From assembly GCF_026151205.1 (NCBI RefSeq), contig NC_087074.1:5456001-5520000 (forward strand): a DNA stretch of 64,000 nucleotides, in the 5' to 3' direction. Positions 35,001 to 38,000 of the stretch are shown here, piece after piece. The notes below the pieces were generated by a model that worked only from the letters and a program-made list of their open reading frames with translations, did no database searches and was not told the DNA's origin. The stretch comes from Bolinopsis microptera. Its lineage: Eukaryota > Ctenophora > Tentaculata > Lobata > Bolinopsidae. Positions within the stretch are counted from its first letter, which is position 1; the number at the start of each line of letters is the position of its first letter. The position numbers and the translations under genes are program-made.

Positions 35001-38000
35001 TTCCTTTTGTCCTTACCCTCGAAATTCAAGCTTTGGCGCGAAGCGCCAAACAATTTAGGCTGTGGCGCGAATCGCCAACAAATATTTAGAATTTGGCCCC
35101 CCCATGAAGAAAATCATTCCTACACCCCTGATTTTGATTGTATAACACGTTATGTTAGTAGTTGGTGGTCATATGTTCAGTAAACATATCAAATTATTTA
35201 GAGGTCATGTCACTGAAAATGATCTGATCCACGCGAGATCCTCTCGGTGATGATATACTCGTGGATCGTATCCAGTCACCTGATCTCAGCACCTTATTGT
35301 CACGTATCAGGTAACACCCCACCATATCACCGTGTACTGAGTAGCTCAAGATGGGTGGCTCACGTCTCTTAGCTTGTTATGACAATACCATGTGATCGTT
35401 AGCTCAAGAATCAAGATGGGTGGCTCACGTCTCCTACCTTGTTATGACAATACCATGTGATCGTTTAGCAAGCTCAGAAGATGTATATAACCTCTCCACA
35501 CGTGAGACACCTATACCATTATCTCTACTCCACTACTACTAATCTGCTGATCCACCACTTATCTTTCTCATGGACACAATTAAATCATCCCCTTCTGCTA
35601 ACAGAGCAAAAATCCTCCAAAAGTCCTTTACTTCGAAAGGTCTCTCTCACAAATTGACGATGAAGACGACTTCTTCCAGCAGGACCATTCCTCAGCATGA
35701 CACCTCTCCTTTTACCATCGTCTCTGGACACCATCATTCCCCTTATGTCAACGTACGACCCCGGAGAAATCTCACCCCGTCATCCCAGAGTCACAGAAGC
35801 TACGTTAATGTACAGCTGAAGAACCAAGATCACACTTACGTCAACATTGGTGAACTTTTGACCCCTCCATCCTCCCCTCTCCAGACGTCCCTCTATCCTG
35901 ATCCAATGTTCACCCCCCAAGATCCAGAGTGCCTTTACCCCACCTGCCTGGCTCTCAACTACACCAACTACATGATGGCTACATCCCAGCTCCGACTTAC
36001 CCCTGACACCCTCCTCCCACCTCCTGACTACGTAGACAACGTCATCGTTGCAGACCAGAACGACACAGTTCTCCACACTGTACCCCACTCTGCACCTACC
36101 TTCTACTCGCTTCCTCGCACTGTTTCCTGCTTCACTCCCCTTGCACGGCTGACTAGCAGACTATCCAGATGTTTGAGGAAGAGAAACAAGAGGAGAAGTG
36201 AGAAGAGGGGCCGGGTTCAGAAGAGGAGCCGAGTTCAGACTTATACTATAGAGGATTATGTTTTTACTAGATTGTGAATATTGACATGTACATATTATTT
36301 GTTTTTTTAATTTTATGATATAAATTAGTTGTTTATTGTTTACAAAAGTCACCTATTATATATCAAGTTTAACCGAAAAATTTTCTTAATTGTTTATTCC
36401 CAGGTGTTGGCTGATGGTGCCTGTGTTGAATGTGGTCCAGGACAATATGTTCAGGACAATGTCTGTGTTTACTGTGAGGATGAAATGTATCTCGGATCTG
36501 AGGGAGTTTGCGTCGGTTAGTCAAAAATACATATTTAAGCAGCTCTATTTGCCTTAATAAATTAGTTTTAGTACACTCATTCCTTTACACCACACGTCAC
36601 TCCTTCCCTTACACCACACTCCTTCCTTTACACCACACTCCTTCCTTTACACCACACTCCTTCCTTTACACCACACTCCTTCCTTTACACCACACTCCTT
36701 CCTTTACACCACACTCCTTCCTTTACACCACACTCCTTCCCTTACACCACCCCTTCCTTTACACCACACCCCTTCCTTTACACCACACTCCTCCCTTTAC
36801 ACCACACCCCTTCCTTTACACCACACTCCTTCCTTTACACCACACCCCTTCCTTTACACCACACTCCTTCCTTTACACCACACTCCTTCCTTTACACCAC
36901 TCCTTCCTTTACACCACACTCCTTCCCTTACACCACACCCCTTCCTTTACACCACTCCTTCCTTTACACCACACTCCTTCCCTTACACCACACTCCTTCC
37001 TTTACACCACACTCCTTCCTTTACACCACTCCTCCCTTTACACCACACTCCTTCCTTTACACCACACTCCTTCCTTTACACCACACTCCTCCCTTTACAC
37101 CACACTCCTTCCTTTACACCACACCCCTTCCTTTACACCACACTCCTTCCTTTACACCACACTCCTTCCTTTACACCACTCCTTCCTTTACACCACACTC
37201 CTTCCCTTACACCACACCCCTTCCTTTACACCACTCCTTCCTTTACACCACACTCCTTCCCTTACACCACACTCCTTCCCTTACACCACACCCCTTCCTT
37301 TACACCACACTCCTTCCTTTACACCACAATCCTTCCTTTACACCACACTCCTTCCCTTACACCACACCCCTTCCTTTACACCACACTCCTTCCTTTACAC
37401 CACTCCTTCCTTTACACCACACTCCTTCCCTTACACCACACCCCTTCCTTTACACCACTCCTTCCTTTACACCACACTCCTTCCCTTACACCACACTCCT
37501 TCCCTTACACCACACCCCTTCCTTTACACCACACTCCTTCCTTTACACCACACTCCTTCCTTTACACCACTCCTTCCCTTACACCACACCCCTTCCTTTA
37601 CACCACTCCTTCCTTTACACCACACTCCTTCCCTTACACCACACTCCTTCCCTTACACCACACCCCTTCCTTTACACCACACTCCTTCCTTTACACCACA
37701 CTCCTTCCTTTACACCACACCCCTTCCTTTACACCACTCCTTCCTTTACACCACACTCCTCCCTTTACACCACACTCCTTCCTTTACACCACACTCCCTC
37801 CTTTACACCACACTCCTTCCTTTACACCACACTCCTTCCTTTACACCACACTCCTTCCTTTACACCACACTCCTTCCTTTACACCACACTCCTTCCTTTA
37901 CACCACACTCCTTCCTTTACACCACACTCCTTTCTTTACACCACACTCCTTCCTTTACACCACACCCCTTCCTTTACACCACACTCCTTCCTTTACACCA

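Follow-up and report, generated by a model that had tools for sequence, protein, structure and literature searches.

Results and Discussion

The locus and its host gene

The window analysed here is a stretch of 64,000 nucleotides of the Bolinopsis microptera genome (assembly GCF_026151205.1, contig NC_087074.1, positions 5,456,001 to 5,520,000 of the forward strand). It contains a multi-exon laminin-EGF gene, one intron of which (2,132 bp, phase 0, gt...ag) encloses an uninterrupted frame of 235 codons (Table 1). The splice sites were read by eye: the upstream host exon, ending in ...CETCPDNH, stops at position 34271 before gtgagt, and the next exon begins at 36404 after cccag, giving an in-frame join. 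Six exon-sized host pieces were scanned, and three of them, including the piece directly upstream of the intron, matched the EGF_laminin family (PF00053). The frame lies wholly within the intron, on the host strand. Nested genes are common, typically 5-10% of all genes and 12.4% in a glass sponge (PMC10282587), so the nesting as such is ordinary; the interesting part is the protein. Further downstream in the host gene region, about 100 copies of a 19-bp unit form a minisatellite (36598-38474), none of whose three forward frames meets a stop for 638-706 codons; it illustrates well that a long frame need not be evidence of a gene.

The preliminary description of this DNA had proposed a 235-codon frame with YxN motifs at residues 59, 78, 90 and 131, followed by a strongly basic C-terminal segment and preceded by a TATA-like box. 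Sequence and translation bear out the frame and the positions of its motifs, the basic segment is present in the translation, and the box reads TATATAA.

Table 1. Features of the nested gene and its surroundings (positions in the window)
Feature	Position	Strand	Evidence and comparison with the paralogue
Host intron enclosing the nested gene	34272..36403	+	Splice sites read by eye; EGF_laminin in piece 34101-34320 (upstream exon)
Conserved upstream block	35220..35403	+	Local alignment; 143 of 204 alignment columns (70%) identical to upstream DNA of the paralogue
55-bp direct repeat (copies 35346-35400 and 35411-35465)	35346..35465	+	53 of 55 bases identical
TATATAA box	35484..35490	+	86 bp before ATG; 89 bp in the paralogue
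Coding frame, 235 aa and stop, single exon	35570..36277	+	Open frame, paralogue, codon comparison
Y59-V-N, candidate Grb2-type site 1	35744..35752	+	YVNV here, YENL in the paralogue
Y78-V-N, candidate Grb2-type site 2	35801..35809	+	YVNV here, YVNL in the paralogue
Y90-V-N, candidate Grb2-type site 3	35837..35845	+	YVNI here, YVNV in the paralogue
LLTPPSSP (residues 96-103), presumed proline-directed phosphosite, FBW7-degron-like	35855..35878	+	LLTPPPSP in the paralogue
PPPDY-x-DN (residues 150-157), contains PPxY	36017..36040	+	Present in the paralogue too
Basic amphipathic segment (residues 187-204)	36128..36181	+	Homologous 18-mer has the top hydrophobic moment in both paralogues
C-terminal FTRL, would fit a class I PDZ ligand	36263..36274	+	Same residues and same codons in the paralogue
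TGTACATA in 3' flank, presumed PUF-element-like	36287..36294	+	One starting at base 31 after the stop in the paralogue

A diverged paralogue and selection on the protein

The length of the frame is by itself no proof of a gene, as the open minisatellite further down the window makes plain. Among 1000 sequences simulated at the length of the intron, under a model that was trained on this very intron with the ORF included, one had a frame of at least 235 aa. When about 61 kb of the window, with the ORF and the minisatellite taken out, were simulated 100 times, no such frame appeared and the longest reached 185 aa. We regard as stronger evidence than these simulations the existence of a diverged paralogue, found by a search of the 264.65-Mb genome on contig C2 (13175209-13175958, minus strand), which encodes 250 aa and is 56% identical to the 235-aa protein. 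With the paralogue itself as the query and E up to 10, four candidates were scored and a third copy was not among them; the count of two copies in 264.65 Mb rests on the best-scoring candidates of the genome search.

Over the 223 aligned codons of the pair, which are two sequences of one genome, the three codon positions differ at 52, 62 and 97 places, respectively. The method NG86 gave dN 0.296 and dS 0.946, i.e. dN/dS of about 0.31 (bootstrap 0.22-0.45, reaching 1 or more in none of 300 replicates), LWL85 gave 0.300 and 0.854 (ratio about 0.35), and YN00 gave 0.334 and 0.709 (ratio 0.47). A different codon is used at 48 of the 124 identical residues. The first 45 aligned codons are only weakly constrained (dN 0.47, dS 0.58), the overall charge of the two proteins is unlike (+16 versus +1), and conservation extends to only six of ten aligned Tyr, three of nine Lys and one of four Cys residues. 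Judged from this comparison of two copies, the frame is under selection at the protein level.

The upstream region

The resemblance between the two copies extends into the DNA that precedes them. The 184-bp block at 35220-35403 gave a local alignment score of 140, against a best score of 39 in 300 Markov-simulated sequences, and the 90 bp directly preceding the ATG gave 51, against a simulated best of 31. The DNA 350-700 bp upstream and the 300 bp downstream showed similarity to the paralogue not above simulation (scores 22 vs 33 and 31 vs 47, respectively). A genome search with positions 35270-35520 returned the locus itself and the upstream DNA of the paralogue (E 5.6e-15, two candidates scored) and no other match at E up to 1. 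That 70% of the upstream block is identical, despite dS of about 0.9 and identity of third codon positions in 126 of 223 codons, points to constraint. Taken with the TATATAA box, found at nearly the same distance from both ATG codons, the block argues that the duplication took in the promoter region, which was then retained together with the frame, and a promoter of its own is strongly indicated for the nested gene. The 55-bp direct repeat carries CTCACGTCTC and TTGTTATGACAA; the paralogue has TTGTTATGACAA once in its 300 bp upstream. On the other side of the gene, TGTACATA is present in both 3' flanks; we take it to be PUF-element-like from its motif class, and it may recur by chance in AT-rich DNA, the flanks being otherwise dissimilar.

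The 9.9 kb around the paralogue, about 5 kb each way, showed no frame resembling laminin-EGF, and a cysteine filter applied to both strands listed four frames there, none EGF-like by eye. The duplication thus seems to have carried the gene and its promoter and to have left the host behind. The proposal of an independent gene embedded in a host is thereby supported, as the paralogue keeps the frame, the upstream block and the TATA box away from any laminin-EGF-like frame seen.

These observations bear on two other explanations of the frame. It could have opened by chance, or it could serve the host as a cryptic alternative exon, since it runs on the same strand within the host intron and only 126 bp separate its stop codon from the end of the intron; we consider this extremely improbable. 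Against it stand the paralogue, diverged under purifying selection and accompanied by a conserved upstream block, its position in 9.9 kb without a laminin-EGF-like frame seen, and the lack of any such frame in the 100 simulations of the window. A chance frame was rejected on the strength of dN/dS, the simulations and the conserved upstream DNA; a cryptic host exon was rejected as the main reading, as the paralogue and its upstream block lie in 9.9 kb that showed no such host frame. Derivation from a mobile element or a virus is suggested by a reverse-transcriptase fragment near the paralogue (PF00078, E 1.1e-5, which falls short of the curated cut-off), yet it is hardly credible in view of the two copies found in 264.65 Mb among the best candidates scored, the duplication of the promoter region along with the frame, the lack of a Pfam match, and the two scans of viral contigs, in which no relative turned up. 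With near certainty, the frame at 35570-36277 is a gene in its own right that lacks introns, and the sequence supports its nested state and a conserved promoter region of its own about as firmly as one genome allows.

Conserved features of the protein

The preliminary description also stated that the protein has no recognisable family. It does lack a named one: searches of Pfam and NCBIfam at E up to 10 gave no match for either paralogue, and none was found among PDB chains with the single protein (E up to 1) or with a profile of the pair (E up to 10). However, two members of the family were found in this genome. No published description of it was found among the literature matches listed. Two scans of viral contigs and two of bacterial and archaeal genome contigs, each based on a few short peptides, revealed no relatives; as both collections cover DNA other than animal genomes, these scans have no bearing on the age of the family. 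PTB, PH and SH2 domains were found in neither paralogue (Pfam, E up to 10), and no long hydrophobic stretch was seen by eye in the 235-aa sequence. The composition suggests that the protein is mostly disordered and that it may associate with membranes.

Several short segments have been conserved in this background. Besides the LLTPPxSP and PPPDY-x-DN motifs, they include SAPTFY, SCFTPLxRLTxRL and the C-terminal VFTRL, the last being identical down to the codons. SCFTPLxRLTxRL overlaps the 18-mer with the highest hydrophobic moment in both proteins, and for the neighbouring 18-mer the observed moment was reached in 58 and 24 of 2000 shuffles of the two paralogues. The conserved motifs are presumed members of the FBW7, PPxY and PDZ classes.

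Of the four tyrosine motifs proposed at the outset, the three at residues 59, 78 and 90 keep YxN in the paralogue, but YTNY131 does not, as the paralogue has H there, and it was rejected as a docking site. Across the three sites the YxN triplets are identical at eight of nine residues, compared with 116 of 214 residues elsewhere (one-sided Fisher P 0.039, uncorrected, for motifs chosen after being seen), and some of these residues change codon between the paralogues. In the 235-aa protein, which has four YxN motifs and 11 Tyr residues, four or more such motifs were reached in 24 of 20000 shuffles.

Candidate GRB2-type partners in the same genome

Trp121 of the GRB2 SH2 domain sets the selectivity for YxN. 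A query with the human GRB2 sequence revealed two GRB2-type loci on contig C6, at 6.61-6.62 Mb and 13.20-13.21 Mb, which were read in exon pieces, the pieces at each place being assumed to belong to one gene. Both keep Trp121 (in KYFLW and LYYIW) and Lys109, and position 120 is Leu in the first locus and Ile in the second. The Grb2 SH2 domain is described as recognising pY-x-N-x, with a preference for pY-(L/V)-N-(V/P), and the +2 Asn is contacted in human GRB2 by the main chain of Lys109 and Leu120 (PMC3787023). Grb2 homologues have been reported from a sponge and from choanoflagellates, and Grb2 is stated to predate animals, while the docking proteins that feed into it differ between lineages (PMC7260276).

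The two GRB2-type loci lie about 6.6 Mb apart on one contig, and at the first of them exon 1 (MEAL...LFDFEAT) occurs in two versions separated by 165 bp. Elsewhere, two neighbouring SH2 domains lie on each of the small contigs C102 and C107, one domain of the pair being nearly the same on both contigs, perhaps as a result of recent duplication or because the contigs are haplotypes.

A possible docking protein

On the basis of the conserved motifs, we lean towards the view that the nested gene encodes an independently transcribed, disordered and membrane-associated Grb2 docking protein, similar to LAT, SHC or FRS2 in its working and unrelated to them; this degree of confidence counts activating and inhibitory variants together. 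The gene would be transcribed from its own compact TATA promoter, and the basic amphipathic segment and the FTRL end, as a PDZ ligand, would hold the protein at the membrane. Tyrosine kinases would phosphorylate the three clustered YxN sites, which could then bind GRB2-type SH2 domains, up to three at once, and the bound proteins would concentrate SOS/Ras or other SH3 partners. The LLTPPxSP and PPxY motifs may serve turnover that depends on phosphorylation and ubiquitin. Against the docking reading, site 1 has changed from YVNV to YENL between the paralogues and YTNY131 has been lost. The modest Fisher P, the unlike charge, the incomplete conservation of Tyr, Lys and Cys and the weak constraint at the start of the alignment count against it too. 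Moreover, since no PTB or PH domain was found, nothing known places the protein at a receptor.

The same features would also suit a protein that sequesters GRB2, acting as a decoy or a feedback inhibitor and not as an activating scaffold. This variant of the docking reading, which we think rather unlikely, would agree with the shortness of the protein, in which no receptor-targeting domain was found, with the fast turnover suggested by the conserved FBW7-like and PPxY motifs, and with the compact TATA promoter; the conserved amphipathic segment and the PDZ-like end speak against it in that they suggest placement at the membrane. Outside the docking reading altogether, the gene could be real, perhaps inducible, and of another kind, e.g. 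a nuclear or immediate-early-type regulator, with the basic segment serving as a nuclear localisation signal and with YxN motifs that are incidental or meant for other SH2 proteins. The conservation of SAPTFY, SCFTPL and VFTRL is on a par with that of YxN, the compact TATA promoter and LLTPPxSP would suit a labile, inducible protein, and no membrane domain was recognised. We nevertheless consider such a function improbable, though not to be dismissed, given the over-representation of YxN in the shuffling comparison and the retention of three clustered YxN sites, some residues of which have changed codon.

Relationship to known docking proteins

The docking protein that we favour would resemble LAT in having three Grb2-type tyrosines in one chain. 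The site contexts in LAT are YVNV, YVNV and YENL, and further features of LAT are a transmembrane helix and a PLC-gamma site, whereas an amphipathic segment and a PDZ-like end are the most that the protein studied here has. No sequence relationship to LAT was detected in Pfam or PDB, so membership of the LAT family is not indicated. In SHC, too, there is a SYVNVQ site, and residues 77-82 of the nested-gene protein read SYVNVQ; SHC, however, has PTB and SH2 domains, neither of which was found here. The likeness to FRS2, Dof, GAB and IRS is that of non-enzymatic docking proteins with many tyrosines; these have PTB, PH or DBB domains, unlike the short single-exon gene described here, whose product has no recognised domain. 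No Pfam family up to E 10 in either paralogue, and hence neither PTB nor PH, links the protein to SHC, FRS2, IRS or GAB. Y171, Y191 and Y226 of LAT bind GRB2-family adaptors, and this binding has been proposed to drive oligomerisation of LAT (PMC4378308). Frs2 in vertebrates and Dof in Drosophila, described as unrelated, fill the same docking role (PMC7260276).

We suggest, tentatively and with more doubt than the docking role itself, that a multivalent, domain-less Grb2 scaffold may have arisen in this lineage independently of LAT, SHC, FRS2 and GAB. It would be a disordered chain that bears three YxN sites and associates with the membrane; a compact intronless gene and the paralogue of this gene would encode it, and a laminin-EGF intron houses one of the two. 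If so, it would be an independent solution to multivalent clustering of Grb2, resembling LAT without detectable descent, and would allow a test of how far docking function needs only spaced YxN sites. The case also shows that a single diverged paralogue can be enough to reveal the gene of a short disordered protein hidden in an intron.

Other features of the window

Two adjacent long frames on the forward strand, 60769-62232 and 62233-63003 (487 and 256 aa), share one reading frame with a stop codon between them, and a Pfam search gave no family above its cut-off for either. A fragment of a rhodopsin-type GPCR is encoded on the minus strand at 14501-15100 (PF00001, E 2.4e-7), and an interstitial array of telomere-type, CCCTAA-like repeats is located at 23457-23553.
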